Assembly: GCA_026182355.1 (NCBI GenBank)
Contig: JAPFBL010000581.1
Span: 23,501 to 87,500 of the forward strand
Source of the DNA: Hermatobates lingyangjiaoensis
Lineage: Eukaryota; Arthropoda; Insecta; Hemiptera; Hermatobatidae
Direction of reading: 5' to 3'
DNA length: 64,000 bases
This document shows positions 600 through 63,843 of this stretch, in pieces. Position 1 is the stretch's first letter; every line of letters starts with the position of its first letter. Position numbers and translations under genes: made by a program. The notes below the pieces were generated by a model that saw only the letters and a list, made by a program, of their open reading frames with translations, did no database searches and had not been told where the DNA came from.

Positions 600-620
600 T
601 TTCGGTTGAACCGTCTTCAG
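600..620 (-). ncRNA. Hammerhead-like ribozyme core (HH-B2)
   Basis: Minus strand: CUGAAGA, stem II CGGUU/AACCG, GAAA. Both conserved boxes are intact. Confidence 0.6.
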
Positions 621-734
621 GAAAGATAAGATAGGGGAACCAAGCGCACTAGTACACCTCTGTCTCCTCCTGGTAGACTCTCTGTCTCCAACCGTCTCTG
701 TACCAGTGCGCTTGGTTTCCCTCTCTTCTCTCCC

Positions 735-755
735 CTGAAGACGGTTCAACCGAAA
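735..755 (+). ncRNA. Hammerhead-like ribozyme core (HH-B2)
   Basis: CUGAAGA at 735-741, short hairpin, GAAA at 752-755. GTAAGT begins about a dozen bases downstream. Mirror copy of the 600-620 core. Confidence 0.6.
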
Positions 756-871
756 ATTAGAGACTGTAAGTTAGTGTTTTCAATTTCTCTATGTTTCTTT
801 ATGTAAATTAAACTGTATTTGTCCATTTCGGATCGTATTTTCAACGAAAAAGTGTATATATATATATATAT

Positions 872-1012
872 ATCAATGATCAAACCACAATAAGTGGGTT
901 TTGACTCTGACGAAGACCGCTTGTTATGGTTGAAAGATCTTAATCTTGTTTTCCCATTTCTTATTGTGGTTTGATCATTGATTGTTATTTCACGTGTTTA
1001 TGTGAAATCTTT
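872..1012. mobile_element. HH-A foldback, asymmetric
   Basis: A short - arm (872-893) and a full + arm to about 1012. The + arm holds a hammerhead core, the TTATTGTGGTTTGATCA block and the terminal TTTCACGTG...GTGAAA hairpin, then TA-rich DNA. This is the commonest family in the window. Confidence 0.75.
907..935 (+). ncRNA. Hammerhead ribozyme core (HH-A)
   Basis: CUGACGA, stem II ACCG-loop-CGGU type (here with one G-U change), GAAA. Both boxes intact. Confidence 0.65.
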
Positions 1013-1689
1013 ATATATACATATATATAATCCAGGAGTAGTGGATTACATGAGGAATCTTGAAACATCATGTCTGTTTAGAGGATATTTGAACCACATA
1101 TATCAGGAATTCTTGAAAACTGTTCTCATTCAGGTTCCGTATTGTTTTTTTTAAATAATTCATTAAACTGGATCTCTTTTCTTTAGTGAATTCTCTTTTT
1201 TCACATATTCTTTTAATGAAAACATCTTATCCATAATTATCTTGCTAATATTCTGCAATATGATGAATAATAATAATTAAGTATTATATCTCAGAGCAGC
1301 AAAAATATTGCAAAAAAAAAAAACATATAATTTGTTCCTAGGTCAGGTGAAAAAAAAAGGTAAAGAGTATTTCGCAAAGGCTTGTTTCCGAGTTGGCGAA
1401 GATATAGGACAAAGTGATATCCGTATGAGTCAGCTCCCAGGCGAGCACACATCCTGGAAACATGCCACTTCCAAGCCTTATAAATCAATTCTCTCTATCA
1501 ACCTTAAATAAACTTTTTTTGTTCTCTTTTTCCTTTTATATAAATATATAAACTTTTAAAAATACATATATATTATTTACTATTTGCAGATGATGATAGT
1601 GAATTTGTTATAAAGTATTTTGATCTATTTGAATTAGGGAAGTAATATGTGGAGGATCTTATTCCATAATATATATATATGTATATATA

Positions 1690-1910
1690 TAAATGTTTTC
1701 CTTATCTCGACCACATATATTTAACACTATTTTTCGATAATCTAGGTTTATATAATCGAGGTTTGGTCTCGATTGCAAAAATGTAACACCTTTAAGCCGT
1801 CGTTTTGTCTATTTTTGTAGACGTCATATAGAAGAACGTCGGCTTAAAGGTGTTGTATTTTTGATGCTAGACCAAACCTCGAGAAAAGAAAAATAGTGTT
1901 ATGTATATAT
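1690..1910. mobile_element. HH-I foldback, core decayed
   Basis: Inverted repeat with arms 1691-1815 and 1818-1905. The CTTTAAGCCG blocks and the GAGGTTTGGTC blocks face each other. The central ribozyme region no longer matches CUGANGA. Confidence 0.6.
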
Positions 1911-1984
1911 ATATATTGTAAACAGGAAAATGATCCAAAAGGACAACCAACGTTTCACGATGAATCATAAACACAGAACTAATA

Positions 1985-2225
1985 ACAAACACACTTTCTG
2001 TCTCTAATTTTTGGTTGAACCGTCATCAGGAGAGTTCAGGTGCAACTTTCGCTCTTGAAGGTGGACGATGTAAAAAAGACAAATGTACGTGGTTATATTA
2101 ATTGATATTAACATCTGTCAAGTTTAACATCAAAGACGACTTTAATGCTTTTGATTTCTCTATGTTTCTTTTTCTAAATTGAACTATATTTGCCCGTTTC
2201 AATTGTATTTTCAACGAAAAAATGT
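1985..2225. mobile_element. HH-B2 foldback, core mutated
   Basis: The - arm has CUGAUGA and stem II at 2004-2031 but AAAA instead of GAAA. The + arm (2132-2225) keeps only the 3' terminal part ending near GTATTTTCAACG and (TA)n. Confidence 0.6.
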
Positions 2226-2250
2226 ATATAATATATATATATATATATAT

Positions 2251-2430
2251 ACGAGTTCAAAATTCAAGAAGAGTAATACACAGAGTAAGGAAACAGACTT
2301 AAAGACTCAAATTTTTGGTAATCCGTCTTCAGGAGAAAAGAGAAAGTGAGACCAAGCACGTTTCCTTACTCTGTGTGTTACTCTTCTTGAATTTTGAACT
2401 CATATTGTGTCCAGTTTGGATCGTGTTTCC
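2251..2430. mobile_element. HH-B foldback, one mutated core
   Basis: Arms 2251-2355 (-) and 2361-2430 (+) share the CAAAATTCAAGAAGAGTAA block. The - arm has CUGAAGA at 2326-2332, but the 3' box is CAAA. It abuts the next element directly, without (TA)n. Confidence 0.65.
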
Positions 2431-3056
2431 TGTGACACATAGACAGAAACATAACAAAGACTCACTTTTCAATATTTTGACCGTAATAGAGGTCGTCCTC
2501 AGGTGAGGAAGTGAATTGACGGACGACAGTTAACTAAAGAACTTACCAGGTGAGGGCTAAAGCAGTGCTGCCGCAAAGGAGAAAAGTAAAAAAGGAATTA
2601 AGGAGTCGAGATGAAAGAAAAAAAAACTGTAAAACAGGAGAATAAAGGTGACGAAAACAAAAAATAAAGGAAATATATACAAAAAACTAACGGTTTAAAT
2701 TCAAGCCAGGATTCGAGCGTGCCCCTAGGAGCCAAATTCATCAGAAGCTTTTAATGTAACTTGTCTGTTATCACTGGGGACTTGTTTGAAAACTTGGACT
2801 GTGAAACAATCATTGAAGCTGAGGAGAAGGGGAATTAGCGTGAGTAGCGACAGGGAGACTGCTGCGTTTACCAACCGAAACCCTGTGATTATTCATCCGA
2901 AGGTTCAGCATCGTAGATGTTAAACCAACGTAAAAAGCATCACATTGGGTGCATTTCAAAAGGTAAGTGGGTGAATTTGTGTGTTGGGTGCATTTTCAAG
3001 TGACCTTTCTTTCTTTGTTTCTTTTACTGTGTCACAGTTTATTTTAAGTTTATATA
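2428..3056 (-). mobile_element. HH-H Penelope-like 3' end with endonuclease remnant
   Basis: Read on the - strand: GIY-YIG endonuclease C-terminal region (about 2940-2700), T-rich 3' UTR, a decayed hammerhead (CUGAGGA, stem GACC/GGUC, then AAAA; 2475-2502), GTGAGT and a terminal TGTGTCACAG block. A short + copy of that terminal block lies at 3010-3056, followed by (TA)n. It shows the natural order endonuclease - 3' UTR - hammerhead - end. Confidence 0.75.
2700..2940 (-). pseudogene. PLE GIY-YIG endonuclease C-terminal fragment, frameshifted
   Basis: Two - strand frames carry LRMNNHR...LPVATHANS and then LSFNDCFTVQVFKQVP...LKASDE. They match the other fragments here (IHANSHNLSFNDCF at 39.0 kb). 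A frameshift near 2837 and a terminal stop break the frame. HANS supplies a zinc-ligand-like His; the E of SDE is probably the catalytic Glu. Confidence 0.7.
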
Positions 3057-3069
3057 TATATATATAATA

Positions 3070-3198
3070 TATACTTTTTTTCGTTGGAAATACGATCCAA
3101 AACGGACTAATATAGTTCAATATAAACAAAGAAACATAGAGAAATCAAAAGAACACACTTATAGTCTCTAATTTTTGGTTTGAACCGTCTTCAGGAGA
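3070..3198 (-). mobile_element. HH-B2 end fragment
   Basis: Single - strand copy running from (TA)n (GGATCGTATTTC side) to CUGAAGA at 3188-3194. The 3' box is CAAA, so the core is decayed. Confidence 0.6.
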
Positions 3199-3218
3199 TA
3201 TATATATATATATATATG

Positions 3219-3456
3219 GTCAAACCACAATAAGAAAAATGGAAACAAAAACCCAATTGATATATATATATGAAGTTCAAAATCACAAGGAAAAAGAAAA
3301 TTAAAAGAAATAAGTACTTTGAGGCTTTTTACTTTATGACAATAGAAAGCAAAAAAAGTTAGAAAAATAAGCTTTTTTTGGGGAGAAGGGGGCGTGAAAG
3401 GCCTCAGAGCATTTATTTCTTTTATTTTTCTTTTTCCTTCTGATTTTGAACTTCAT
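3219..3456. mobile_element. HH-A remnant and coreless HH-M foldback
   Basis: A 40-bp HH-A remnant (3219-3260), then an imperfect palindrome from GAAGTTCAAAATCA (3271) to TGATTTTGAACTTC (about 3455). Its right half shares GCCTCAGAGCATTTATT with the HH-M element at 26.5 kb, but no ribozyme core is left. Confidence 0.5.
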
Positions 3457-3459
3457 TGA

Positions 3460-4955
3460 TTGAAGTCTCCTTAGATTAATTGACAACGACTCCTTAGATC
3501 AGTTCCATTCAAAGGTGGGTAACCTCCAAAATCAGTCGAACAACACCAACAGCATTTTAAGAGGTATGAAGGTTTGTTCTGTTCCTAATACATTCTAATA
3601 ATACTATGAATCTTACATACATATTAAAATTGTTTTGAAAATGACTCTCATTTAAAAAAAAAATATATCGAGACTAAATGAATTATGTTTTAAAAAAAAT
3701 ATTTATCATTATTTCTATCAATGATACTATCTCCATCATTTTTTTCATTTCCATTAAGGAAATATTTACATTTCATGAAGTACTTAAAATCAATGAGCCA
3801 AAGTTGTGGAGTGTTGTGATAAACAATCATTAGTTTACATAAAAAAAACTAGGTGCATTTCCTTCTAAAATTCAAGGATATTCAAAGAAACATCATATTT
3901 ACTACAAAGTAAAGTATGTTTTATAAGGTTTGTGCAAATTAAGTGCTTTGTACCTACACTTGTCTGTTGACTTGTGAAAAAATGTTCGTGTATAATTGAC
4001 TGAAAAATTCAGTCAGCTGAAAAATTCTAGTTAAAAAAATACTAGATATTTTTGAAGAATAATGAAAAGTGAAAAAAAAATAGTAATAAAATAAATATGA
4101 AATCCTCAAAACAGAATGTAAACCAATAGAAAATGAAATAAATTTTTAAATTATAAGTACCTAACCAAATTAGAAAAAATTTAAATGATGATTAAGTTAA
4201 TTAGCATTATAAATTCAGGGTATGCTCATTTAATTATGTGCCAGAGCAGGTAGTGTACCCTAATTGATAAGCTTTACACGTTTAATGGTTGCTACTTTGA
4301 CTAATTCCATTAATGCATTGGTGCAGATTTGTTTTCTATTGTTACATGTATGAAAGAATAAAATTCTCTCAGTTGTTTTAACTTATAAACCACATACGTT
4401 TTATTAAGTGCATATTTTATATTACTTTTCTGTACCAAGTTCATTTAAGTTGAGCATAAGTTTTCTTGTGTTATATTTACTATATTATATTTAGTATAGT
4501 GATATAGTTTTACTATATTTAGTGATAAACATCCAAGAGTATCAAGTGAATTTTTTTGTTCTTTTTTTCTTTTATTATATTCTGAGCTCTAATGGAATAA
4601 TGATTCATAATTAGTTTGATCTGGTTAAAAAATTGGAAATATTGGCAACTTTTTGGAAAATGCATTTTTTCCTGAAAAGAAAAAACAAAAAACTGTGTTC
4701 TTCTTAAAGTTTATTGCATATTAGCTTTGCATGAGTGAACAATAGATGATTATAATAATAACATTTACCTACAATTTTTATCACAATCATGATTTGTTTT
4801 CTTCTCTCAATATTCGTATGTTATCAGATTATTGGTGATTTTCTTCTTATGATTGAAAATACTACAGTTCTTTTAGGGTTTTGGTCTTCTGATTAAAACT
4901 AGTAGTATGAATCATAAGGCCTAAGCCCTCAAAAATTTCATAACATATAATATTA
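3460..4955. other. AT-rich intergenic, no feature seen
   Basis: No open coding frame, TIR pair or SINE head found; long A and T runs only. Confidence 0.5.
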
Positions 4956-5036
4956 TAAAAAGATTTCACATAAACACGTGAAATAACAATCAATGATCAA
5001 ACCACACTAAGAAAATGAGAAAACAAGACTAGGATC

Positions 5037-5065
5037 TTTCACCCGTAACAAGTGGTCTTCGTCAG
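5037..5065 (-). ncRNA. Hammerhead ribozyme core (HH-A)
   Basis: CUGACGA, stem II with one mismatch, GAAA on the - strand. Confidence 0.6.
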
Positions 5066-5085
5066 AGTCAAAAACCCAACTGACT

Positions 5086-5114
5086 CTGACGAAGACCGCT
5101 TGTAACGGTTGAAA
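5086..5114 (+). ncRNA. Hammerhead ribozyme core (HH-A)
   Basis: CUGACGA at 5086-5092, ACCG/CGGU stem, GAAA at 5111-5114. Confidence 0.65.
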
Positions 5115-5472
5115 GATCTTAGTTTTGTTTTCCCATTTTCTTATTGTGATTTGATCATATAATATTATATATCAAACTTCAAACGGTCTGTACACTCTTT
5201 TACTTCTTTACCCCTGTGTTTTTTTCTCTTTTCTTCTTCATTCGTTTTCTGCTTTTCCAGTGATCGTTTAAATTTTCAAATGATCAAAATGTTCAAGAAT
5301 CACCGAAATAATTATGAGTGTTTTCTTTTTGTGTTTTCATAAAACAAAAGCTGACTTCGTTATTTAAAGAATTTTCTTTATTAAAAATGGATTATTATAT
5401 ATAGAACTAAATATTATTCTATAATTTTTCATAATTCCGATGTTATTTTCAATTTCTACATATTCACATATT

Positions 5473-7019: not shown

Positions 7020-7230
7020 GATCACGACTCTTCGGTTCTTTTTTATTTTTCTCCTTCGCGATAGCACTGCTTTAGCCCTCACCCAGTGAGATCTATACTT
7101 GACTGTCGTCCTTCGTCAATTCACTTCTTCTCCTGAGAACGACCGCCATAACGGTCGAGATATTGAAAATTGAGTCTTTCTTATGTTTTTTTCTGTGTGT
7201 CACAGTTTATTTTAAGTGTATAATATATAT
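7020..7230 (+). mobile_element. HH-H end fragment
   Basis: T-rich 3' UTR-like part, CACTGCTTTAGCCCTCACC block shared with 2.57 kb, decayed hammerhead at 7133-7160 (CUGAGAA, stem GACCG/CGGUC, GAGA), terminal TGTGTGTCACAG and (TA)n. Confidence 0.65.
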
Positions 7231-7430: not shown

Positions 7431-7732
7431 ACGAGTTCAAAATTCAAGAAGAGTAACACACAGAGTAAGGAACACACTTACAGACTCAAATTTTTGGGTA
7501 ATCCGTCTTCAGAAGAAAAGAAAGGGAGACCAAGCACGTTGTAGACGCAATGTCAAGTAACCCAACAGTTGCGTCTACAACGTGCTTGGTCACCCTTTCT
7601 CTTTTCTCCTGAAGACGGATTACCCGAAAATTTGAGTCTGTAAGTGTATTTCCTTACTCTGTGTGTTACTCTTCTTGAATTTTGAACTCGTTTTGTGTCC
7701 AGTTTGGATCGTGTTTCGTTTAATTAAGTGAT
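7431..7732. mobile_element. HH-B foldback
   Basis: Arms 7431-7545 (-) and about 7575-7732 (+) with a short asymmetric loop. The GCGTCTACAACGTGCTTGG blocks face each other. The + core is intact; the - core (7492-7512) has CAAA. The + arm ends GGATCGTGTTTCGTTTAATT. Confidence 0.8.
7609..7629 (+). ncRNA. Hammerhead-like core (HH-B)
   Basis: CUGAAGA, CGG/CCC(G) short stem, GAAA, then GUCUGUAAGUG. Stem II is short, so activity is uncertain. Confidence 0.55.
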
Positions 7733-11730: not shown

Positions 11731-11759
11731 TTTCAACCGTAACAAGCGGTCTTCGTCAG
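11731..11759 (-). ncRNA. Hammerhead ribozyme core (HH-A)
   Basis: CUGACGA, AGACCG/CGGUU stem, GAAA on the - strand. Confidence 0.65.
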
Positions 11760-11775: not shown

Positions 11776-11804
11776 CTGACGAAGACCGCTTGTTACGGTT
11801 GAAA
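11776..11804 (+). ncRNA. Hammerhead ribozyme core (HH-A)
   Basis: Mirror copy of 11731-11759; CUGACGA and GAAA intact. Confidence 0.65.
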
Positions 11805-11925: not shown

Positions 11926-12085
11926 GATTCGCGCTCCGTTCTTCGACGTGGGGAGATCTCTCTCACTTCGTCCTCTCTTTTAGTCTACTCCTGATGACGA
12001 ACTATAGTTCGAAATATTGAATTCTGTAAGTGTTCTCTTTATTCTTTTTTCTGTGTCGTCCTTTGTGTAATTTAAAGTTATATAT
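11925..12085 (+). mobile_element. HH-C Penelope-like end
   Basis: Single + copy starting CGCGCTCCGTTCTTCGACG, with hammerhead, GAATTCTGTAAGTG and terminal GTGTAATTTAAAG before (TA)n. The longer minus copy at 38.5-39.1 kb shows the endonuclease upstream of this module. Confidence 0.75.
11991..12014 (+). ncRNA. Hammerhead ribozyme core (HH-C)
   Basis: CUGAUGA, stem II CGAAC-UAUA-GUUCG, GAAA at 12011-12014. One of the best cores in the window. Downstream AU...AU could form the 2-bp helix III usual in PLE hammerheads. Confidence 0.75.
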
Positions 12086-12315: not shown

Positions 12316-12487
12316 TATACTTTGGGAGCAGACCTTCTTTTAAACATACCTCATTAAAGATCTTGCCAACATTAAGTTTAGTATTTTTCCTACATACCTT
12401 TTCAAGGTTTCGAATGCTACCTTTCCATCTCTGTGGTACCATATAAATTAACTCACCGATTTTTTTATCTTTCATTGTATTTTTCAT
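12315..12487 (-). pseudogene. PLE N-terminal domain (left arm)
   Basis: Conceptual protein IGELIYMVPQRWKGSIRNLE...VGKIFNEVCLKEGLLPKYTNI, running into YIYIYI from (TA)n. It is conserved with the domains at 33.8, 37.8 and 49.6 kb. Confidence 0.7.
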
Positions 12488-12940
12488 ATTACATTTCCGA
12501 CGTTTCGGTCTACGTTGACCATTTTCAAGGATTCTATATACAAGGTTTTTTTAAACAATTCTAATAAATACTTATTTACAATGACAATTACCTCACTTCT
12601 ATCAAACATAACTAATAATAAAATATTCTTTTAAAAAACACTACGTTAATAAACATGAGTAACAGGTTTGCTACAAAATTCCCTACATGAACATTTACAC
12701 AACATTATTTAAATCACTATATAGTTATTTTTCACGAATGTAACTTTAAAATTCTGGAAAAACAACAGGACTGATCATTAATGTTCGGCTTCTTTTCCTT
12801 TATGCATAATGATTCAATTATATGCAGCCTCGTGTGATTATTTTCTGCATATAATACTTCAATGTTGTCTTCCAGCATTTTTTCTGCTTAGCCTGCTTTT
12901 ATGTATGTTCATTGTGTGTTCTTCGAGTTCCTGCACAGCA

Positions 12941-13306
12941 AATATGATAATTAGGAACAACCTACAACAAAAAACACAACTACAAAAAACCAATGTAGTG
13001 TACAGATATAATTGCACTATAGGAGACTGTGAGCTCCTAAAATCGAGCTACATTGGTTCTACGACGACAACACTTTCACGCAGACTTACGATGCATCTCG
13101 CAGCCGGAGGACCGAAAGAACACACAATGAACATACATAAAAGCAGGCTAAGTAGAAAAATGCTGGAAGACAACATTGAAGTATTATATGCAGAAAATAA
13201 TCACACGAGGCTGCATATAATTGAATCATTATGCATAAAGGAAAAGAAGCCGAACATTAATGATCAGTCCTGTTGTTTTTCCAGAATTTTAAAGTTACAT
13301 TCGTGA
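12941..13306 (+). pseudogene. PLE GIY-YIG endonuclease fragment
   Basis: The frame is open from 12809, but the first 40 codons are antisense of the left arm, so the real fragment starts about NMIIRNN at 12941. It shows VYRYNC (GIY position, about 12998), a Cys-x4-Cys pair, SSYIGSTTTTLSRRL (YIG at 13049-13057 with catalytic Arg), three His in MHLAAGGPKEHTMNIH, and IIESLCIKEKKPNIN with the catalytic Glu. The order matches the zinc-finger-containing PLE endonuclease C-terminus, ending at the normal stop. The RT part is missing. Confidence 0.9.
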
Positions 13307-13550
13307 AAAATAACTATATAGTGATTTAAATAATGTTGTGTAAATGTTCATGTAGGGAATTTTGTAGCAAACCTGTTACTCATGTTTATTAACGTAGTGT
13401 TTTTTAAAAGAATATTTTATTATTAGTTATGTTTGATAGAAGTGAGGTAATTGTCATTGTAAATAAGTATTTATTAGAATTGTTTAAAAAAACCTTGTAT
13501 ATAGAATCCTTGAAAATGGTCAACGTAGACCGAAACGTCGGAAATGTAAT

Positions 13551-13686
13551 ATGAAAAATACAATGAAAGATAAAAAAATCGGTGAGTTAATTTATATGGT
13601 ACCACAGAGATGGAAAGGTAGCATTCGAAACCTTGAAAAGGTATGTAGGAAACATACTAAACTTAATGTTGGCAAGATCTTTAATG

Positions 13687-13692
<6 letters not shown>
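13551..13692 (+). pseudogene. PLE N-terminal domain (right arm)
   Basis: Same protein as the left arm, interrupted by (TA)n after KIFNEV, before the GLLPKYT motif. Confidence 0.7.
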
Positions 13693-13726
<34 letters not shown>

Positions 13727-14199
13727 GAACAGCTAGCGAATTTCAGATAAACTTTTAGAAATAAAATATTAGCTCCAATTTTAGAAGTAAAACACGAAGT
13801 TTTATTCATAAAATAAAGAAGAAATATTTATTTATAAAACTAAACATAATAAAAAATTATTATTATTATTGGATCAATATTTCTGATACAAACATATTTA
13901 CCTGAAAATCTAGCAAATTTCAAATAAACTTTTGGAAATAAAATATTAGCTAAAACTTTAGAATTAAAATACAAAGATTTATTTATAAAATAAAGAAGAT
14001 TTATTTATTTATAAAACTAAACGTCATAAAAAACATATTAATAATGGATCAATATTACTGATACAAACATATATTTATCGGAAGAGCTAGCGAATTTCAG
14101 ATAAACTTTAAGAGCTGAAATATTAGCTGGAATTTTAGAATTAAAATACGAATATTTATTTATATATCAATATTATTATTGAAATCTACTCTAAATGAA

Positions 14200-20632: not shown

Positions 20633-21322
20633 TACCTCATTAAATATCTTGCCAACATTAAGTTTAGTATGTTTCCTACATACTTTTTCAAGGTTTCGAA
20701 TGCTACTTTTCCATCTTTGTGGTATCATATAAATTAACTCACCGATTTTTTTATCTTTAAATGTATTTTTCATATTACACATGTCCGACGTTTCGGTCTA
20801 CGTTGACCATTCTCAAGGATTCTATATACAAGGTTTTTTTTAACAATTCTAATAAATACTTATTTACAATAACAATTACATCACTTCTATCAAACATAAC
20901 TAATAATAAAATATACTTTTAAAAAACAATACCTTAATAAACATGAGTAACAGGTTTGCTACAAAATTAGTTTATTAAGGTAGTGTTTTTTAAAAGTATA
21001 TTTTATTATTAGTTATGTTTGATAGAAGTGATGTAATTGTTATTGTAAATAAGTATTTATTAGAATTGTTAAAAAAACCTTGTATATAGAATCCTTGAGA
21101 ATGGTCAACGTAGACCGAAACGTCGGACATGTGTAATATGAAAAATACATTTAAAGATAAAAAAATCGGTGAGTTAATTTATATGATACCACAAAGATGG
21201 AAAAGTAGCATTCGGAACCTTGAAAAGGTATGTAGGAAACATACTAAACTTAATGTTGGCAAGATATTTAATGAGGTATGTTTAAAAGAAGGTCTGCTCC
21301 CAAAGTATACCAATAGATATAT
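20632..21322. mobile_element. Penelope-like foldback (same family as 12.3-13.7 kb), no endonuclease
   Basis: Arms 20632-20968 (-) and 20970-21315 (+) with almost no loop. Both arms share private variants against the 12.3 kb copy (CTTGAGAATGG, AAGATATTTAATGAGG), so they arose together. Hammerhead-like motifs at 20787-20817 (-) and 21094-21122 (+). The + arm encodes the complete N-terminal domain to GLLPKYTN. Confidence 0.85.
21129..21316 (+). pseudogene. PLE N-terminal domain
   Basis: MKNTFKDKKIGELIYMIPQR...KLNVGKIFNEVCLKEGLLPKYTN, the best-preserved copy of this terminal domain, then RYIYKLS and stop. Confidence 0.7.
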
Positions 21323-22311: not shown

Positions 22312-22575
22312 ATGATCAAAGCACAATTTTGGTTTGATCATTGATTGTTATTTCATGTATTTATGTGAAATCTTTATATATATATATATTTCTCTTAATT
22401 AAATGAAACACGATCCACACTACAAACCACAAATGTCTCCCTTTCTCTTTTCTCCTGAAGACGGTTCCCGAAAAATTTAAGTTTGTAAATGTATTTCTTT
22501 ACTTTGTGTGCTACCTATCCACAATTTTGAACTGTTATGTCCAGTTTGAATCGTTATTCCGTTTACATATATAAT
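22312..22575 (+). mobile_element. HH-A remnant and HH-B end
   Basis: 22312-22378 is an HH-A foldback cut down to the outer tips. 22388-22575 is a + HH-B copy that keeps TTAATTAAATGAAACACGAT at its left, the hammerhead and GTCCAGTTTGAATCG at its right. Confidence 0.65.
22455..22473 (+). ncRNA. Hammerhead-like core, shortened stem II (HH-B)
   Basis: CUGAAGA, CGGUUCCC, GAAA: boxes intact but stem II shortened by a few bases. Confidence 0.4.
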
Positions 22576-22717: not shown

Positions 22718-22893
22718 TATACCCCAATTAAATGAAACGGTTCAGAGGACTTTTTTAAATAAAATAAATTCAAAACGAAAGAAACACACAGACATAACTC
22801 ACATCGATATTTCGACCATCGTCGTCATCAGGAGGTGTGAGTTATGTCCGTGTCTTTCTGTGTGTTTCTTTCGTTTTGAATTTATTTTATATA
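22718..22893. mobile_element. HH-D foldback
   Basis: The - arm 22718-22835 includes the core; the + arm 22836-22893 starts just 3' of it at GTGTGAGTTATG. Arms are nearly identical (AAACGAAAGAAACACACAGA). Confidence 0.75.
22810..22831 (-). ncRNA. Hammerhead ribozyme core (HH-D)
   Basis: CUGAUGA, GACGAUGGUC hairpin, GAAA, then UAUCGAUGUGAGU. Confidence 0.65.
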
Positions 22894-24099: not shown

Positions 24100-24570
24100 A
24101 AGAGCCTTAATTTTTTTCGTTTTTATATCTTTCAGAGCAATCAATTTGTGTATTTAAAAATTCTCCTGTATTGTGGGTTTAACATAAACTGATATTTCGT
24201 ATTATCTATGATTCTGATTTAAGCATACATCGAAAAAGTAAAATCGTAAAATACATGATTTTACTATTTATACTGAATTGTTTTGTGAATGATAATACTG
24301 ATACCCCTTTCAGAGCTTTCTTTAAACAGTCAATTTCTTGTTCATTATTCACCACTATGAAGCAGTCGTCTACATAACGGCAGTATACGTGTGGCTTGAC
24401 TATTGATTCTTGTGCTTGAACACTCTTCTCTACATTGCAATGTAAAAATTTGCAAAAGTTACTCCCAGGGAAGAACCCATATCAATACCATCTCTTTATA
24501 ATATAAACTATCATCAATGTGCGTAAAAGGCTTTTCAATAGTGCAACTTCCCAGTAGATCACTGTTGTGA

Positions 24571-24808: not shown

Positions 24809-24809
24809 C

Positions 24810-37421: not shown

Positions 37422-37442
37422 CTGAAGACGGATTACCCGAAA
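37422..37442 (+). ncRNA. Hammerhead-like core (HH-B)
   Basis: Mirror of 37107-37127; intact boxes. Confidence 0.55.
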
Positions 37443-39119: not shown

Positions 39120-40010
39120 TATATATATTGAATGTTTTCTTATCACGACCACATATATTTAACATTATTTTCTTTTTTATGGAGGTGTGGTCTAGCTTCA
39201 ATAGTACAATACCTTTAAGCAGACGTTTCGTCTACATTTTATAGATGTTTTGAGGGCTATATCTATACAAAATTTAATTATAATAACATGAAAAGTAATT
39301 ATATTACAGCATTTAATTAATATACATAATTACCTTAGTATGTTTCTATTGTAAGGAAGCGACATAACGGTTTGTGTTCAAATCAGCTAGTGGGCTGCCC
39401 TAGTGACTGTTTTTCGAACCTTCTATATCAGACTTGATAACTCAAAACAACCCTAATAAACTCATAAAAACTATATCAAGAAACAGTCATGAAAACTGCA
39501 ACCATATCCTTAATTACTGAATTATAGACTATATTTTATTTAGGTTTTCTGTATCCGTTTTTTTTTATTACAAGCATTTTTGGATTTTCGAATGTGAATA
39601 TTTTTATAAGCCTCTGATTTTTTATAGTCTAGTATCTTATATAGGCTATTACTTAGTAATTAAGATATATGGTTGTAGTATTCCTGGTTCTTTTTTGACA
39701 TAGTTTTAATGAGTATATTAGGTTTGTTTTGAATTATGAAGTCTGACATAGAAGGTTCGAAAAACGGTCACTAGTGCAGAACACTAGCTGAATTGAACAC
39801 AAACCGTTATGTAATTGCTTCCTTACAATAGCAAAATACCAAGGTAAATATGTATCTTAATTAAATAATGTAATAAAATTACTTTTCAAGCTATGGCAAC
39901 TAAATTCTGTATTGATGTAGCCCTGAAGATGTCTACAAATACAGACGAAATGTCGGCTTAAAGTTGTATTATTGAAGCTAAACAAAACCTCGATAAGTGT
40001 GTTTGTATCT
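39120..40010. mobile_element. HH-I large foldback
   Basis: Arms about 39126-39530 (-) and 39690-40005 (+). Facing blocks include GAACACAAACCGTTATG and AACAAAACCTCGATAA. The arms are diverged. The + core is intact, while the - core (39222-39255) has CUCAAAA but keeps GAAAC. Confidence 0.75.
39923..39950 (+). ncRNA. Hammerhead ribozyme core (HH-I)
   Basis: CUGAAGA, stem GUCU/AGAC with an 8-nt loop, GAAA. Good stem II. Confidence 0.7.
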
Positions 40011-40014
40011 AACA

Positions 40015-41190
40015 TTTTCCTCATAGATGAAATGATACTCTGATAAAGACTACTTGCTTTGTTTAAATATTCATGATTGTTTTTTTAGTTTTTTTTTTCA
40101 TTTTCTGGCAGTTGCTTAAACGTTGATTTTTATTTCAACAGTTTATTGTGAAATTTTTTAGTTATTCTTCCTTTTACGCCTACAAAAACAGCTAATTTTA
40201 ATTTGTTTTCAGTGAGTTTTATATAGAATATAATTTACTTATAAGGTAAATAATTCAGTTCCCTGATTTAGTTTAATGTGAAGATATTTACAAATCTTAA
40301 AACTAAAATTTTTATGATCTTTCCTAAAAACTACGTATAATGACGATAACTCCTGTTTACATTATTCTTATCAAAGATAACACACGCAATGAAGTAGCTT
40401 CATTCATGTAGGAATCAGTAATTCATGGTTTCTTCTGAATGAACAAAGTATTTAAATTGAAATGTTCTTTTTTTTTTATAAAAATATAGAAAAGAGCAAT
40501 TAATAGTTTTATCTATTAGACGTTTGCGGTATAGTGCTTGGGGAAGTTGAATAGGTGTATGGCTTATGGCTGGAGAAGACTCTGAGAGAGCAGGCCTCAA
40601 CAAGTCCGTGCCCCACCCCATCCACGGCTAGAGGCAGCAAAAAAACGAATCCCTGCTGCCACAGCCTTACCTGTCACAGCCTGCAGCCCACACCCAGCAC
40701 GTCTTTGTGTCGAATCCATACATCTCAACCTCTGGAAAAGTACTTCCTCCAACCTCTCTCAATCCACCTGCAGCAATAACAGTCGTAGTCTATGATAGGA
40801 TAAACACATCGCGCGTACATGAGCCTGCACGACGAATCGATAATACCTAACATCATATCCCACAGAACAGAAAAAAATATAAAAATATTATTATTAACGA
40901 CATGGTTTGAAATAAACATCTACACTTCAGATTAGTCCCAACTCTTTATTATCTTTATCATAAATTTATTACTGATGAGCTAAAAAAAAATAATGGACAC
41001 GCAATTACTAAACACAAATAATCCTATGCAATATACATTGATTTGCAAAGGGTTAAACTTTTCGTGCAATATTCATTAAAAAATATTGCAAAAAATTATG
41101 GCTGAAATAGTAGAATAAGGGTAGATGTTTTAAATAATAAAAGAATAGAAGAGCATTAAGTAATAAATGTTATTGATAAAATATTACATA
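40015..41190. other. Intergenic with a GC-richer patch
   Basis: 40555-40830 is GC-rich (CTGCAGCCCACACCCAGCAC, TCGCGCGTACATGAGCC) without a recognisable product; the rest is AT-rich. Confidence 0.4.
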
Positions 41191-41194
41191 AAGA

Positions 41195-41620
41195 GATGAT
41201 ATAATATTATCTCAAGTTATGATATAATATTAAATTGAGTGATGATACAATATCAGATCAAGTGATGATGTAATATTAAATTGAGTGATGATATAATATT
41301 ACCTCAATTATGATATAATATTAAATTAAGTGATAATGTGATATTATAATATTAAATCAAGTGTTAATATAATATTAAATTGAGTGATGATACAATATCA
41401 GATCAAGTGATGATGTAATATTAAATTGAGTGATGATATAATATTACCTCAAGTTATGATATAATATTAAATTAAGTGATAATGTGATATTATATATGGT
41501 GATAATATAATATTAAATCAAGTGTTAATATAATATTAAATTGAGTGATGATACAATATCATATCAAGTGATAATGTAATATTAAACTGAGTGATGATAT
41601 AATATTATATCACTTATTAT
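41195..41620. repeat. Minisatellite with higher-order structure
   Basis: Units of about 24 bp, consensus AAGTGATGATATAATATTAAATTG-like. A longer phrase beginning GAGTGATGATACAATATCA recurs at 41237, 41382 and 41543, a higher-order period of about 145-161 bp (six units). Confidence 0.85.
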
Positions 41621-42804: not shown

Positions 42805-43210
42805 GTCATAACAAGATTTAACAATTAACACGTGAAAAAAAAATTAACCTCTAAACCACAGTAAGAATAAAAAAAAAAAAAAAACTTTTTCTTCTTCTTG
42901 GAGTTTGGTCAGGGTTAATATAAGGAATCGCCTTTTCGCCAACGTTTCGTCTTTACTTTTAAGACGTCCTCAGGGCTATAAACTAACAAAAAACAATGGA
43001 TATTTGTCATATCTACTTTACAATCATTATAACAAATTCAAAAAAATTACTTACTCAAGGCTAGCTTCTAATTCCGAACAAAACCGTTATCTGTCATCAG
43101 ATTTCACCGACGAAATGTTGGCGAAAAGGTGATTCCGTATATTAACCCTGACCAAACTCCTAGAAGAAGGAAAAGTTTTTCTTAGTAAATTATGGTCAAG
43201 AAAACAATAC
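42805..43210. mobile_element. HH-L foldback with HH-A-like tip
   Basis: 42805-42870 is the tip of a divergent HH-A arm. 42880-42985 (-) and 43095-43210 (+) are HH-L arms with TTGGTCAGGGTTAATAT and its mirror. The + arm keeps only the 3' half of the core (GACGAAAUGUUGGCG). Confidence 0.7.
42945..42973 (-). ncRNA. Hammerhead ribozyme core (HH-L)
   Basis: CUGAGGA, stem GUCUU/AAGAC, GAAAC, then GUUGGCG. Excellent stem II. Confidence 0.7.
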
Positions 43211-43279
43211 CTTATAATAAAAATATATATATATATATATATATATATTATTAAGAAATGGGAAAACAAGACTAAGATC

Positions 43280-43308
43280 TTTCAACCGTAACAAGCGGTC
43301 TTCGTCAG
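43280..43308 (-). ncRNA. Hammerhead ribozyme core (HH-A)
   Basis: CUGACGA, ACCG/CGGU, GAAA. Confidence 0.65.
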
Positions 43309-43336
43309 AGTCAAAAACCACGTTGGGTTTTTGACT

Positions 43337-43365
43337 CTGACGAAGACCGCTTGTTACGGTTGAAA
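43337..43365 (+). ncRNA. Hammerhead ribozyme core (HH-A)
   Basis: CUGACGA, ACCG/CGGU, GAAA. Confidence 0.65.
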
Positions 43366-43464
43366 GATCGTAGTCTTGTTTTCCCATTTCTTATTGTGGT
43401 TTGATCATTGATTGTTATTTCACGTGTTTATGTGAAAGCTTTTTATATATATATTATATATATC

Positions 43465-43605
43465 TTTTAACTAAAACAAGTGGTATTTCTCAGAATCAAT
43501 TTTGGTTTTAGTATCAGTTGGACACTGACGAAAAATGTTTTGTTTTGAAAATTTTTAGTCATTTTTTTTTATTTCTTACTGTGGTTAGACGTTTATACTG
43601 TCATG
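43465..43605 (+). mobile_element. Divergent HH-A end
   Basis: Core at 43525-43550 has CUGACGA, AAAA/UUUU stem and GAAA although the rest of the element is strongly diverged. Ends in CTTACTGTGGTTAGACG. Confidence 0.6.
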
Positions 43606-43879: not shown

Positions 43880-44150
43880 TTACTGAAATTACAAACTTGT
43901 GGAGAGTATTATGTCTTCATACAAAAAATTATATTGTAAAAAAACTAACAACGCGTTTCGAATACTTCATGTTTTGCTTCAGGTTACTTCTAAGAAATAT
44001 TTGTATATATTGTATATATGAGCTTTAAGAAGATTGGGGGTAACCTGAAGAAAGAACATGAAGTGTTCGAAATGCATTATAAATTTTCTTGTAATAAACT
44101 TTTTTGTGTGGATGCATAATACTTTCCCCAATATGAGGAAATACTACACT
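43880..44150. mobile_element. HH-E foldback
   Basis: Arms about 43905-43995 (-) and 44035-44145 (+). The - core has CUGAAGC; the + core is intact. Confidence 0.75.
44045..44072 (+). ncRNA. Hammerhead ribozyme core (HH-E)
   Basis: CUGAAGA, stem GAACA/UGUUC, GAAA, then UGC. Confidence 0.7.
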
Positions 44151-48440: not shown

Positions 48441-48888
48441 AAAAAAAATCTTATGTTGTTTCTTTTTTTTTTGTGATTTTGGAGGAGAACCCCCTTTTTC
48501 TGTTTATGAGAGGAAAGAGATGTTTTGAGCTGTTCAAGGTCATAATGGCGGGCCCTATATATTGGCGTCCGTCCAAGATAGAATAGCATCGTTTGGAAAA
48601 CAAGCTGATGCAACCATACCAGTAGTTTAATCAAGTCAATTCTTTTTTCTAAATTTCGTGTTGAAATTGAAATAACTTGCGAATTGTTTTATTTAATTGC
48701 TAGCTAAAAATAAATTCATCTAAACGTATACACATTCTAATACTGTGCCAATAACAAGATTTATTGGCCATTCATTTCAGTTGGGAAATTCAGAAATATT
48801 ATTGAGGGCAGTGGCCAACGAATCCAGTGATATTAGCATTAAAACTTGAAGTTTTAGTTCAATCCACTGAAAGGAGAGATATATTCAG

Positions 48889-49420
48889 TAATATAACATT
48901 TCTAAGCAATTAAATATCTCTAGCGGAATTTAAATTTTTTTTAACATATATATTACTAATTTTTAAAAGAAAGTTTTAAGCACCCAGAACGTCCCTCGAA
49001 GAGGACGTTAAACCGTCGATCCTGAGAATTTACGATGTTAGGCACACAATAAAGATCTCTTTACTGTTAATACACTTGAGTTAGGCAAAATTTAGGGCTT
49101 CACGAAATGTTTACAGTAATATAACATTACTAAGCGATTAAATATGTCAGAGCTAAATTTAAATTATTTTTTTTTTTTAAATATATAACTAATTTTTAAA
49201 AGAAAGTTTTTTAAGCACCCAGATCGTCCCTCGGAGAGGGCGTTAAACCGACGGTCCCAAGCCTTTATCATATCAGATGCATGTTAAAGATCCCTATTCT
49301 AAATACACTTGAGTTAGGCAAAATTTAGGACTCCCATTGTAGAATGAATGGGAGATGCTTCTATCTGCATCGGAGGACTGACTTGTCGGTTTCTCAACCC
49401 TCTAAAAAAAAAAAAAATCA
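48889..49420 (+). repeat. Tandem duplication containing SINE bodies
   Basis: About 225 bp starting at AGTAATATAACATT (48889) is repeated from 49114. Both copies run through AATTTTTAAAAGAAAGTTTT into the SINE body (GCACCCAGA.CGTCCCTCG, GTTAAACCG, ACACTTGAGTTAGGCAAAAT). Only the second reaches the SINE 3' end (about 49420). No tRNA head. Confidence 0.75.
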
Positions 49421-50430: not shown

Positions 50431-50760
50431 AAAAAAAAAAAAACTCACTTCAAATTTTGACATTGTCGTCATCAGGAGAAGGAGAAGACTTCTTCTTGGC
50501 AAATCAGCTGCTGCCAGCCGAACAGAACTTTTTCTTCTCCTGATGACGTCAAGGTCAAAATATGAAGTGAGTGTTTTTGTTTCTTTTTGTTTATCCTTAT
50601 TCTTTACTTACAATTGTTTTATATATACTTTTTCGATAAAAATACAATAAAGGGACAACTAAAGTTTATAGTAGATAAAGAACCATAGAAAAATTAAATA
50701 TACAAACTTACAGTTTCTAGACTGTAAGTGTGTGTTTTTAATTTTCCTGTTTTTTTTTTA
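50430..50760. mobile_element. HH-J foldback and coreless HH-B2-like foldback
   Basis: HH-J arms 50441-50500 (-) and 50525-50600 (+), each CUGAUGA with GAC/GUC stem but AAAA for GAAA (50453-50477 -, 50538-50560 +), followed by GAAGTGAGTG. 50680-50755 is a small palindrome around CTTACAGTTTCTAGACTGTA. Confidence 0.65.
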
Positions 50761-51066: not shown

Positions 51067-51243
51067 ATAAAAAGATTTCACATAAACACGTGAAATAACA
51101 ATCAATGATGAAACCACAATTAGAAAATGGGAAAACAAGACTAAGATCTCAGTTGGGTTTTTGACTCTGACGAAGACCGCTTGTTACGGTTGAAAGATCT
51201 TAGTCTTGTTTTCCCATTTTCTAATTGTGGTTTGATCATCCAT
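51067..51243. mobile_element. HH-A foldback, private variant shared by both arms
   Basis: Both arms read ACAATTAG where all other copies have ACAATAAG, showing common origin of the arms. The left arm is cut before the core. Confidence 0.8.
51167..51195 (+). ncRNA. Hammerhead ribozyme core (HH-A)
   Basis: CUGACGA, ACCG/CGGU, GAAA. Confidence 0.65.
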
Positions 51244-60014: not shown

Positions 60015-60990
60015 ACAAAAAAATCTTAGCGTTCTACAGAAACTTACAACTATTATATGACAAACTTACTACTCTTCTACTACAAACTAACTATTCATTA
60101 ACGATAAACTTACTAATATTTTACAACAAATTTACTAATCTGATACGACAAACTTAATACTTTTATACTATGAATTTACTACTCTTGTATGACAAACTTA
60201 ATTCTTATATAAGACGAACTTACAACTAGTGCACGTCAAACTTACTTCCCTTATACATATAAATAAAATTAAATACTGAGAAACCTACATATGGAAATAC
60301 GCAAAAACTTACATGTAAAGAATTAATATAATAGGAAATTAAAAAAAATCAAACTTTGTTTAAAAAAATAAAAAAGGACTATTATAACGCGGGCTCCCCC
60401 ACTCCACATAATCTTATCTCCCAATAAGTATTTATATTTATATTAGAAATAGGTAAAACCGTCATACCTCGTAAGATGATCATGGAGTTGGAGCGCTTTC
60501 AGACGTTGTCCATCTTCGATCACAACTTCGATGGACAACGTCCGAAAGCGCTCCAACTCCATGATCATCTTACGAGGTATGACGGTTTTACCTATTTCTG
60601 ATATAAATCATACTAACCTCAGTGGTATTAACAATATGCATGTATTTAAGTATTTATATGATATAAAATCTTAAAAAAATTTTCTGCTCTTATATGACAA
60701 ACTTCCTTCTCATATACTATAAATTTACTACTCTTGTATGATAAACTTACTTCTTATATATGTCGAATCTACAACTTTTGTAGGTAAAGCTTACTTCTCT
60801 TATACGCAAACTATAATCTAATCTTAAACGACAAACTTCATTCACCTTTATGGCAAAATTACTACTCTTTTATGACAAACTTCCTAGTCATATACTACTA
60901 GTTAATGACAAATTAGTCTTCTGTTACGATAAATTTATTTATCTAAAAAATAAAGTTACTTTTCTCATACGATAAACCTCTAAGTATTCT
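60015..60990. repeat. Degenerate about 24-bp minisatellite split by a palindrome
   Basis: Units like TATGACAAACTTACTACTCT fill 60050-60255 and resume at 60690-60990. Between them lie unique DNA and the HH-K palindrome. Confidence 0.75.
60440..60606. mobile_element. HH-K palindrome, near perfect
   Basis: Arms 60446-60515 and 60531-60604 around a 15-nt loop. Minus core-like motif: CGAAGA, GGAC-AAC-GUCU, GAAAGCGC; plus: CGAUGGAC-AAC-GUCCGAAAGCGC. Followed by CCTCAGTGGTATTAACAA, as at 29.87 kb. Confidence 0.7.
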
Positions 60991-60994
60991 TAAA

Positions 60995-61805
60995 AATTAG
61001 AATTATATATATCGTTACTACTGAAATCTGTTAGTAGGACTCATACATCATTAAACATACTTTACTAGTTGCAGTTAAAGTTAGACAGATCCGGTCTTTT
61101 CAGATAAGCGCGTAATTCACAACAGAGTTACCTTACCTAGTAAGGTTCCCCATGTCAATCTGGTTCCACTGGTTGTAGATTTTTTCAACTTTTTTGTGTA
61201 CAACAGTAAAAAAGAGTATCAATATAGAATATTGGCAATATACAGAACTGTTAGAACGAAGGAAACACATACGAAGTCATGTATTCCTTTCTTTTTTTAA
61301 TTGTTATTTAGAGCTTCTGCAAACAATTCATAATATCATTCTGCTTCGATTATAAGTGCTAATTAATGAGCTTTTTTTTTTTTTTTTAAATTGAAAATCT
61401 AGTTTATGAAGAAAATATGAAATTAATATCAGTGAAATTCTGATGCGCAAATAGTAATTTATTTCTTCAGCAATTTAAAACCAAAGAACTTGTGTAGTGC
61501 TTGGTGTAACCATGAGACTAGAGGACAGCTGAGGGAGGGGGGAGCGGGAGAAACTTAATGCTGTTTTGTGTCGTGTCAAGAGAAATAAACCGACACACAA
61601 GATCTGACTTGACCTTCCTCAACCGTTCACTTTCAAACACTGCACGCATGCGAAACCTCGTCATTTCTATTAACCATTTATTAACTACACAATTACCTTC
61701 TTTTTTTTTAATTTTCCGATCTTCATTTCAATGAGTAATTTGGAACATAGAGCTACTTTGTTAAATATATAACAAGGCTATATAAAAGAATTTGAAGGAA
61801 ATCAA
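60995..61805. other. Intergenic with GC-richer patch
   Basis: 61510-61660 is GC-richer (GCTGAGGGAGGGGGGAGCGG). No gene seen. Confidence 0.4.
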
Positions 61806-61824
61806 ATGCATGTAAAGGTTTTTT

Positions 61825-62275
61825 TTTTAAACTATGTTTCTGCTCATTCATGACATTTTTTTTAAAAAACATACCACGAAATTTTTCTGCTCATTCAAAA
61901 AGAGTTTTGAAAACATACCACGAACTTTGTTTCTGTTGATTCATTAGGTTTTACAAAACATATATTGAACTGTTTCTACTCATTCATAAGGTTTTTCAAA
62001 ACATACCACAAACTTGGTTTATGCTCATTCATTACGTTTACATAACATGGCATGGACTTAGTTTCTGCTGATTCATTAGGTTTTACAAAACATGTAAATA
62101 GTGAATAGTGAATGTTTCTACTCATTCATAAGGTTTTTCTAAACATACCAAGAAATGAGTTTATGTTCATTCATTACATTTACATAACATGCTATGAACT
62201 TAGTTTCTGCTCATTCAAAAGGTTTTCTAAAATATTCAGCGAATTTATTTTAGCTCATTCATAAGGTTTTTGCGA
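61825..62275. repeat. Minisatellite, unit about 55 bp, roughly eight copies
   Basis: Consensus TTTCTGCTCATTCATAAGGT then TTTTCAAAACATACCACGAA. Alternating unit subtypes (TGCTGATTCATTAGG and CTACTCATTCATAAGG) hint at a two-unit higher-order period. Confidence 0.8.
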
Positions 62276-62279
62276 TGTT

Positions 62280-63625
62280 AATCATTAAATATTGCAATGG
62301 TAAACAATAGATCTTATACTATCACGTACGCTTGATCATTTCATTGATCAAACAGGTGAATGAAATTAAATTGAACTAAATATAATATAACATGAACAAC
62401 AGCTAATAAATGAACTTAACAAATTTAATAGTGAAATTCAAAATAATTTAGATAAAAGTCTATTCTTTTGTATTTGCAGGTTAACACACTTAAATCTAAA
62501 AGTGTGTTTAACGTATAATATTTGATACAACAAATTTTTCATAAATAACACACACTTTCTGCATTCACTAATTTAATAATTATATATAGTAAAGATTAAG
62601 AATTCTAAAACCCTTAATTTATGACATTGAAATTTGCAAACGATTCATATTAAGAAAACTATCAGAACTCAAATTCAAAAACCGTATAATAATAATTTTG
62701 TTTACACTAAATATTTCATGGTTTTGGTTTTAATAAAATCATTTAGAAAGAGTCATAAAAAAATAGTCAAAAAACTATTCATATTTCATAATATTTATGA
62801 AGATATTATAAATATTTTAAAATTTTTCACTATCAAGAAACATTTTAAACCTCAATATCCAGAAAAAAAGATTGATATGAAAGATTCATCTGAACGTAGG
62901 TATTTCGAAGTTTTTATTAAAAATGTTTTTGAGTGAAGATATTTTAGACTTTTCATAAAATCCTATGAAAGTATTATTTCAAGATATTTAGACATATTAT
63001 TATACTTAGGTGTAGAAAGTAATAATGAATATATAAATATCTGAAGATTTTTTTAAATTTATTATTTAATATAATTAAATTTAGAACAGAGGGAAGGGTG
63101 AGGAGGGAAAAGAGGATTTAAAATTGTTTTATGATCTCGATATTAACTGAGTGAAGATATTAAGAACATTGAAATATTAAGCTAAGATAAATATAATGGC
63201 GAAAAAAAAGTTACAAAACATTTAGTGAAGGAAGCTATAACTGAAGAGAAACATTTGAAATGTTTCATAATTTGATGTCATGTAAATATTCAGTAATATA
63301 TAATTTTAGCACACAAAGTTTAAAGACATTTAGTTTTAAAAAGTTCTGAAGACAAATATTTATACCTGGATAGTGCATATTTTTATAGCCTGTTTGAAAG
63401 AGCGGAACAACTAAAACGTAATTTTAGAAAAAATATAAATAATTACTTTTTTTAAAAAAAATAAAAAAAGCATTTTTTTATACCACAGAGGCATTCTATA
63501 AATTTAAATCATGTGTCTATGTGAGGTATGGTGAACTCATTTCTGAGAATTTTTATTATAGAATGATATTTGTACAAGTCAAATGCAAATATAACTTGTT
63601 CTTTAGTAAAGTGGTTTTATAAAAG
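62280..63625. other. AT-rich intergenic, no feature seen
   Basis: The open frame 62634-62936 (100 aa) is Lys/Ile/Phe-rich as expected from base composition; no domain. Confidence 0.4.
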
Positions 63626-63664
63626 TTTCCACACAAATGAAGTTTATTATTAAACAAAAACGCG

Positions 63665-63691
63665 TTTCGAACACCTTGTGTTCATCATCAG
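63665..63691 (-). ncRNA. Hammerhead ribozyme core (HH-E)
   Basis: CUGAUGA, stem GAACAC/GUGUUC, GAAAC. Six-pair stem II. Confidence 0.75.
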
Positions 63692-63816
63692 GAAGACACC
63701 AAAGAATATGGTGCTCGATGGTTGTTCTTGTGGAAACAACTCTTAATTATTGTTTCCAATAACTCTAAAGAGTTGTTTCTACAAGACTAACCCCCCAGGT
63801 ATCCTTTGGTGTCTTC

Positions 63817-63843
63817 CTGATGATGAACACAAGGTGTTCGAAA
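63817..63843 (+). ncRNA. Hammerhead ribozyme core (HH-E)
   Basis: CUGAUGA at 63817-63823, GAACAC/GUGUUC stem, GAAA at 63840-63843. AC..GU then U fits a 2-bp helix III and an NUH site. Confidence 0.75.

Follow-up and report, generated by a model that had tools for sequence, protein, structure and literature searches.

Minimal type I hammerhead ribozymes of Penelope-like elements (PLEs) and Terminons were reportedly described by Cervera and De la Pena in 2014 and by Lunse et al. in 2017, the latter, going by its title, with activity as dimers. Some known PLE hammerheads carry an extra nucleotide before stem II. Here, we analyze a 64-kb stretch of the Hermatobates lingyangjiaoensis genome (contig JAPFBL010000581.1; C581:23501–87500 of a 910-Mb genome, ~30% GC; hereafter the window) that is rich in hammerhead-like cores. 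From their sequences we read these cores, with a probability of roughly 0.7, as minimal type I hammerhead motifs of PLEs and their short relatives that would act as dimers and be inserted by two-sided reverse transcription.

Several described systems come close. The known hammerheads of PLEs and Terminons are like those in the window in their CUGANGA/GAAA core, in a helix III that is tiny or missing, and in their location in the pseudo-long terminal repeat (pLTR) (PMC7761336, PMC6155905), and their role has been described as unknown (PMC7761336). What differs here is the density of about one motif per 5.5 kb, the many families, the usual extra nucleotide, and 4–6-nt palindromes specific to each family. 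PAc, a Poseidon PLE of Anolis, shares with the present elements AT-rich targets, both strands of which are cut and extended, a hammerhead at the junction of pLTR and open reading frame (ORF), and two adjacent start sites of reverse transcription; its loci are described as tandem (PMC11167929), whereas most insertions here consist of two copies in head-to-head orientation, one with a long and one with a short tail, and frequently lie at (TA)n. Penelope elements of Adineta vaga also show head-to-head inverted pLTRs with an optional tail at one pLTR (31 bp in Pen2a) (PMC3846280), whereas the rule of one long and one short tail is nearly invariant here and extends to tiny elements; the word hammerhead is absent from the main text of that paper (PMC3846280). 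Metazoan non-LTR retrozymes are likewise short non-coding elements with type I hammerheads that coexist with PLEs, and their motifs number over 6000, in 16 families, in Acropora and 126,247 of type I in axolotl (PMC7229834); in contrast to them, the elements here form inverted pairs, not tandem repeats. A literature search found no report joining PLE hammerheads with TA repeats, which does not show that none is in print. PLE hammerheads and head-to-head copies are thus already known, and what is added here is the density, the palindrome covariation, and the strict tail asymmetry.

Hammerhead-like cores in the window and in the genome

The 31 cores listed in the initial annotation all have an exact CTGANGA...GAAA at their start and on their strand (31/31 checked; minus-strand sites are named by their lower coordinate), and the presence of hammerhead-like cores in the window is confirmed. 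A relaxed descriptor search that had been proposed as a check, CTGANGAN{8,38}GAAA, returns 39 matches, whereas 100 dinucleotide shuffles average 4.5 and never exceed 9. The eight matches beyond the 31 are a longer reading of the 42945 site and the unlisted sites 1995-, 2467-, 26545-, 27749-, 32998-, 45411-, and 63241+; none of these seven combines a stem II of at least 3 bp with a palindrome, and 2467- and 1995- have the appearance of decayed copies.

The chance controls extend to structure. Among 38 box sites in the window, a stem II of at least 3 bp is found at 25 (0.54 per shuffle), stem II with a palindrome at 20 (0.04 per shuffle), and both with a stem I of at least 2 bp at 11 (0 per shuffle). 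With 1000 permuted box pairs, the corresponding maxima are 12, 10, and 1, and the real values are never reached. The dozen unrelated families claimed initially is somewhat high: by our own grouping, four groups take up 26 of the 31 sites (C-type, 11; A/D-type, 8; B/E-type, 5; I-type, 2), leaving five singletons. The compensatory differences claimed for stem II hold in part, in that real compensatory changes occur between families, whereas the loops cited as an example, UAUA and AACA, represent a change of the loop only.

The high density noted in the window extends to the whole genome. The hammerhead pattern CTGANGANGN{6,14}CGAAANNNNNH has 121,816 genomic matches, compared with 402 for its reversed control, and the exact 29-mer core of the C-type, which cannot match this pattern, has 42,934 copies, compared with 0 in the control. 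Together, these counts give about 165,000 motifs, or about one per 5.5 kb. Taking the axolotl genome as ~32 Gb, the density per base lies far above that of the axolotl motifs.

Layout of the motif and structural evidence

Side-by-side comparison of all window sites gives a common layout that consists of the 5' strand of stem I, CUGANGA, usually one extra nucleotide, stem II, GAA, a palindrome, H17, and the 3' strand of stem I (positions are numbered by the standard hammerhead scheme). The palindrome comprises 4 or 6 nt, starts at A15.1, and ends at U16.1; it is present at 25 of the 31 sites as AAUU, AUAU, AGAUCU, ACGCGU, and others. H17 is never G in these 25 sites (25/25) and is not G in 56 of 58 palindromic sequences from the genome. 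Stem II has at least 3 bp at 24 of the 31 sites. Its G..C closing pair follows the box directly at no window site, after one nucleotide at 16, and after two at 8; the corresponding numbers in a 120-kb sample (twelve 10-kb regions on long contigs, their positions set in advance) are 1, 23, and 9. The layout is exemplified by the C-type, GACU-CUGACGA-A-GACCG..CGGUU-GAA-AGAUCU-U-AGUC, and by the 42945 site, GCC-CUGAGGA-C-GUCUU..AAGAC-GAA-ACGU-U-GGC. The motif of a PLE in the window, UCC-UUGAAAA-U-GGUC..GACC-GAA-ACGU-C-GGA, has U3-A8 instead of C3-G8; this exchange has been reported in nature, and its covarying form was active in vitro in earlier work (PMC3088659).

The palindrome and extra-nucleotide rules were first noticed in this window, and tests on the genome came later; since the rules were drawn from the window, the three later tests outside it matter. 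An alignment of ten sequences was built from loci outside the window that were picked by eye as hammerhead-like, which biases the pairing percentage upward; here, the closing pair is G-C in 10/10, 94.6% of stem II cells are paired, and the covariation score is reached in 0 of 500 shuffles. The counts of double-sided changes and of further pair types in these ten are not above shuffles (192/500 and 338/500). A covariance model built from them, R1, identifies 23 window sites at E ≤0.0082, including the unlisted 7123+ and 36047+, and scores the PLE motif low (E 0.65). Hammerhead-like sites outside the 31 that this model brings up are located at 7123–7172 (+), 36047–36096 (+), 50443–50485 (-), and 50530–50572 (+).

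A second covariation set contained 83 distinct sequences, drawn from the 100 that were listed among 106 matches to a pattern fixing only part of stem II (reversed control, 5). In this set, pairs two and three of stem II covary above all 1000 shuffles, and pair four shows no covariation (87/1000 shuffles reach its value). The palindrome was examined in the first 100 places listed for the genome-wide pattern, all on contig C1, which yield 73 distinct sequences. Among these listed matches, 58 of 73 are palindromic, with eight kinds of palindrome (AUAU, AAUU, ACGCGU, ACAUGU, AGCU, ACGU, AGGCCU, and AUAUAU), and 18 of 24 loop clusters have palindromic representatives, compared with 5.4 after column shuffling and with none of 5000 shuffles reaching 18; the clusters are crude, one of them mixing several families. 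A cluster-level test on a mixed set of loci is moderate (10/16 vs 6/27, P 0.01), and the point is therefore carried by the C1 listing. Perreault and colleagues have pointed out that a palindromic stem III is compatible with hammerheads acting as dimers (PMC3088659). The assignment of these motifs as hammerheads is supported at the sequence level by the covariation of stem II, its conserved closing pair, the family-specific palindromic helix III, and the non-G H17, and is not supported by Rfam, as detailed below.

Individual cores

The C-type is the most frequent in the window. Intact cores are found at 36938–36966 (-), with stem I GACU/AGUC and helix III AGAUCU, and at 51167–51195 (+), the right arm of the head-to-head pair 51074–51239. 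AGAUCU is also present at 907–935 (+) and at 5086–5114 (+), which has a stem I of 4 bp and forms the right arm of pair 4962–5158; the palindrome of its left arm, 5037–5065 (-), is mutated. An AUAU variant of the C-type occupies both arms of a further head-to-head pair, 11731–11759 (-) and 11776–11804 (+). In pair 43252–43437, the left arm contains a core at 43280–43308 (-) and the right arm a core with mutated palindrome at 43337–43365 (+). The core at 38287–38315 (+) is truncated directly 5' of the core, and that at 24767–24795 (-) is the left arm of pair 24693–24962, in which a C-type copy is joined to an A2-type copy.

Pair 547–814 carries D-type cores in its left arm, 600–620 (-; helix III AAUU, H17 A, stem I 4 bp), and in its right arm, 735–755 (+; stem I 1 bp). 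The A-type core at 7609–7629 (+), with helix III AAUU and stem I CUC/GAG, belongs to the right arm of pair 7431–7717; others are located at 37107–37127 (-), 37422–37442 (+), 37609–37629 (-), and 38130–38150 (+), the last with a mutated palindrome, and a diverged A-type core at 22455–22473 (+) has AAAUUU, a stem II of 2 bp, and no stem I. Helix III is AUAU in the B-type cores at 11991–12014 (+; stem II GAAC/GUUC), 26343–26366 (-), and 38544–38567 (-), and in the E-type core at 22810–22831 (-; stem II GAC/GUC, H17 C); a second E-type core, 31923–31944 (-), has U as the extra nucleotide. The I-type core at 63665–63691 (-) has a stem II of 6 bp and helix III ACGCGU (R1 E 1.1e-5), and the palindrome of that at 63817–63843 (+) is mutated to ACGCUU (R1 E 4.5e-6). 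The remaining sites are single-family cores at 39923–39950 (+; stem II GUCU/AGAC, with AUGU here and ACGU in a relative at locus L024), 42945–42973 (-; stem II 5 bp, helix III ACGU, stem I GCC/GGC), and 44045–44072 (+; helix III AUGCAU, two extra nucleotides before stem II), a diverged core at 43525–43550 (+; AAUU, stem II read without an extra nucleotide), and a degenerate core at 26691–26711 (-; stem II 2 bp, no palindrome, R1 E 0.003).

By eye and uncounted, GTRAGT, which is like a 5' splice site, is seen ~6–20 nt after the cores of families with a polypyrimidine tract, in the window at 735–820 (+), 11991–12060 (+), and 26650–26711 (-), and at several loci elsewhere. The window also contains tandem arrays at 13715–14164 (unit 177 bp), 41174–41612 (23 bp), 48886–49329 (233 bp), 60040–60897 (22/44 bp), and 61860–62270 (44 bp).

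Carriers of the motif

The link to PLEs, which the initial annotation drew from known systems, is now directly seen in the window and at two loci elsewhere, L051 and L052. In the window, a 174-aa open frame at 12782–13306 (+) has the C terminus of a PLE GIY-YIG endonuclease (12926–13303), and copies elsewhere form an 839-codon frame that combines a reverse transcriptase (RT) with the same endonuclease. RVT_1 is found in this ORF; the GIY-YIG model scores 19.2 and 22.5 bits, below its cutoff of 22.6, and homologues carry PF01541 in some cases. The 839-codon PLE has the RT and the GIY-YIG endonuclease that characterize a PLE, together with pLTRs and an optional 3' tail. The frame in the window is flanked by a head-to-head pair of 3' pLTRs of this PLE, the left arm at 12347–12734 (-) with its long tail outside and the right arm at 13304–13691 (+) with a short tail running into (TA)n. 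Each carries the U3-A8 hammerhead variant (12491–12538 and 13500–13547), which R1 finds only at the E value of 0.65 given above. A second, 5'-truncated head-to-head pair of the same PLE family lies at 20633–21278 (20633–20968, -; 20970–21278, +), and an RT fragment at 24119–24557 (-) has a main piece that is 54% identical to the 839-codon PLE.

L052, a locus at a preset position, contains a 533-codon RT frame of a second PLE type, which is followed ~490 nt on its 3' side by an A2-type hammerhead. Pfam scores only the RT in this frame, its C terminus looks endonuclease-like by eye, and many of its relatives carry both RT and GIY-YIG domains, the named ones being from Macrosteles, Graphocephala, and Lineus. 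At L051, a PLE endonuclease is followed by an ACAUGU hammerhead ~150 nt further 3'. With its length of ~120 nt, the non-coding C-type is too short for an ORF; accordingly, the short hammerhead elements do not encode RT or endonuclease, and we regard the C-type as PLE-like but non-autonomous. Separately, positions 1–4000 of locus L033 are open in all six reading frames over ~4 kb, presumably as satellite DNA.

Insertion pattern

Neighboring copies are arranged predominantly head to head. Among 100 typed C-type places in the matches listed, 20 neighbors lie within 200 bp of each other, 19 as '-+', 1 as '+-', and 0 on the same strand. In the first head-to-head table, made from 22 of 53 sources, neighbors within 60 nt comprise 34 '-+', 12 '+-', 3 '++', and 2 '--', and 7 of the 12 '+-' neighbors join different families or subfamilies; in the same sources, (TA)4 or more lies within 40 nt of 45 of 74 copies that reach the family 3' end, compared with 3.8% of random places. 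A later table of 57 head-to-head pairs, from all 52 loci and the window, contains 56 pairs of the same family, whereas random pairing predicts ~44%; the sole mixed pair is the C-A2 pair in the window.

The two arms of a pair have different tails. For the C-type, with long arms defined as 113 nt or more and short arms as 80–94 nt, 29 of 36 pairs have one long and one short arm, 0 are long-long, 1 is short-short, and the remaining 6 have one long arm and one of another length; the asymmetry among the 30 classifiable pairs has P ~3e-8 relative to independence. In the A and A2 families, 6 of 7 pairs end unequally near the same two points, and the picture in E, D, and I is less clear-cut, with equal ends in several pairs of the E family. 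For the 839-codon PLE, a long outer end is combined with a short one in all 12 pairs, among the sources listed, whose two ends can both be seen (window pairs 12347–13691 and 20633–21278; loci L029, L031, L032, and L034–L040), the loci among them having been chosen for endonuclease hits, which are often paired, and not for their tails. By eye, the short outer end of these pairs runs into (TA)n, and the other end is longer by ~35 nt.

At locus L002, near position 1546, the two C-type arms are joined at AGTTGGG, and the junction contains a single additional C that may represent the copy of a cap G. The AGTT of this sequence resembles an arthropod initiator.

Discussion

In the reading that we favor, the carriers of the motif would be Penelope-like retroelements and short non-autonomous relatives of ~90–160 nt. 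A helix III palindrome of only 4–6 nt leads us to propose a ribozyme that is active when two RNA copies form a homodimer, in which the GAA-palindrome of each copy would pair with that of the other; a palindromic helix III is what a dimer-acting hammerhead needs, and the motif sequences thus suggest dimer action. Cleavage would take place after H17, as in known hammerheads. Insertion may proceed by two target-primed reverse transcriptions, one on each strand of a cut (TA)n, that start at different RNA sites and join at the RNA 5' ends. Such two-sided reverse transcription would produce the divergent pairs of cores, minus then plus, that are seen in the window.

A number of observations weigh against this reading. 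An Rfam scan, suggested at the outset as a check, gives no hammerhead in the whole window at gathering thresholds or at E up to 10; when single stretches are searched, an 81-base stretch gives a best score of 10.9 bits (E 6; cutoff 34) and an 86-base stretch gives no hammerhead match, so the hammerhead claim needed tests of its own. R1 scores the C-type poorly (E 0.08 to 1), and CUGACGA is conserved no better than its surroundings in this family (5.2% mismatch vs 1.4–8.6% elsewhere). In 28 of the 31 sites, an extra nucleotide stands between A9 and stem II, a departure from the textbook core, in which the 10.1-11.1 pair adjoins A9. This nucleotide is C in 36, U in 29, A in 8, and G in 0 of the 73 distinct C1 sequences listed; in 65 of 73, being C or U, it is able to pair with G12, the general base of the hammerhead (PMC6155905). 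If such a pair forms, catalysis should suffer. It is present in the folds predicted for the 42945 site and the PLE motif and absent from that of the C-type, with its extra A. As for the weakness of stems I and III that had been remarked on in the initial annotation, helix III owes its shortness to being a 4–6-nt palindrome, which suits dimers, and stem I, weak in many copies, has 2–4 bp in 15 and 0–1 bp in 10 of the 25 palindromic sites. Among the folds predicted for eight monomers, those of A, B, D, and I do not resemble a hammerhead; the C-type, 42945, and PLE monomers show stems I and II as drawn, with extra core pairs, and E does so in part. Homodimer cofolding gives mostly long duplexes and is uninformative on helix III.

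Some of these points could be accommodated if the fold were maintained as a signal at which the PLE RT/endonuclease binds or initiates, with catalysis lost or incidental, which we consider a possible but clearly less probable explanation. The weak stem I and the inserted core nucleotide that could pair with G12 fit this explanation, as does the behavior of PAc, whose template needs part of the pLTR-ORF region and whose hammerhead cleaved only with protein and was dispensable for insertion in vitro, catalytic mutants still being inserted (PMC11167929); the PAc results also count against the reading favored here. However, a protein site would not obviously need a palindromic helix III across families or a non-G H17 in 25 of 25 sites, and the U3-A8 pair of the PLE motif corresponds to an exchange found in nature, the covarying form of which showed activity in vitro (PMC3088659). 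That the motif is a chance or low-complexity artefact multiplied by repeats is very improbable: many of the listed sites are indeed copies of a few repeats, but the shuffles, the permuted boxes, the reversed control (402 vs 121,816), and the covariation all oppose it.

The arrangement of the copies bears on two further explanations. Head-to-head pairs could stem from self-priming, in which one cDNA folds back and copies itself, as has been proposed for Adineta Penelopes (PMC3846280). The 56 of 57 same-family pairs agree with this, and some junctions, such as that of 11731-/11776+, fit by eye a snap-back of ACT on AGT. A simple fold-back copy would be expected to have equal tails, however, whereas 29 of 30 classifiable C-type pairs and 12 of 12 PLE pairs are unequal, and one pair joins two families; the one-long/one-short tails therefore favor two reverse transcriptions per insertion over simple self-priming. 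To self-priming as such we assign about one chance in four. Alternatively, the short elements might be metazoan retrozymes, with tandem hammerheads releasing the circular RNAs through which they spread, given that small non-coding type I hammerhead repeats coexist with PLEs in the systems described (PMC7229834). Retrozymes are direct tandem repeats, whereas none of the 20 close C-type pairs has both copies on one strand and 19 have the head-to-head orientation; there is therefore no unit between two same-strand ribozymes at these places, and a retrozyme origin is improbable.

A more speculative extension of the two-sided model, and one we hold to be rather unlikely, is that the family-specific palindromic helix III serves as a dimerisation tag that joins two RNAs of the same family as matched templates for the PLE enzyme. 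The two templates would be laid down head to head at a single cut (TA)n, entering from its two sides and each using a different start site, and the hammerhead would be mainly a template-pairing device. If true, this would explain both the same-family pairing in 56 of 57 cases and the retention of the palindrome while its sequence changes.

The roughly 165,000 pattern-matching motifs, in many families, constitute natural covariation data on the helices of the hammerhead. The conservation of helix III as a palindrome, and not as a sequence, provides evolutionary support for dimer action, and the association of the motif with an insertion signature, head-to-head copies with one long and one short tail, makes the model of two-sided reverse transcription testable.

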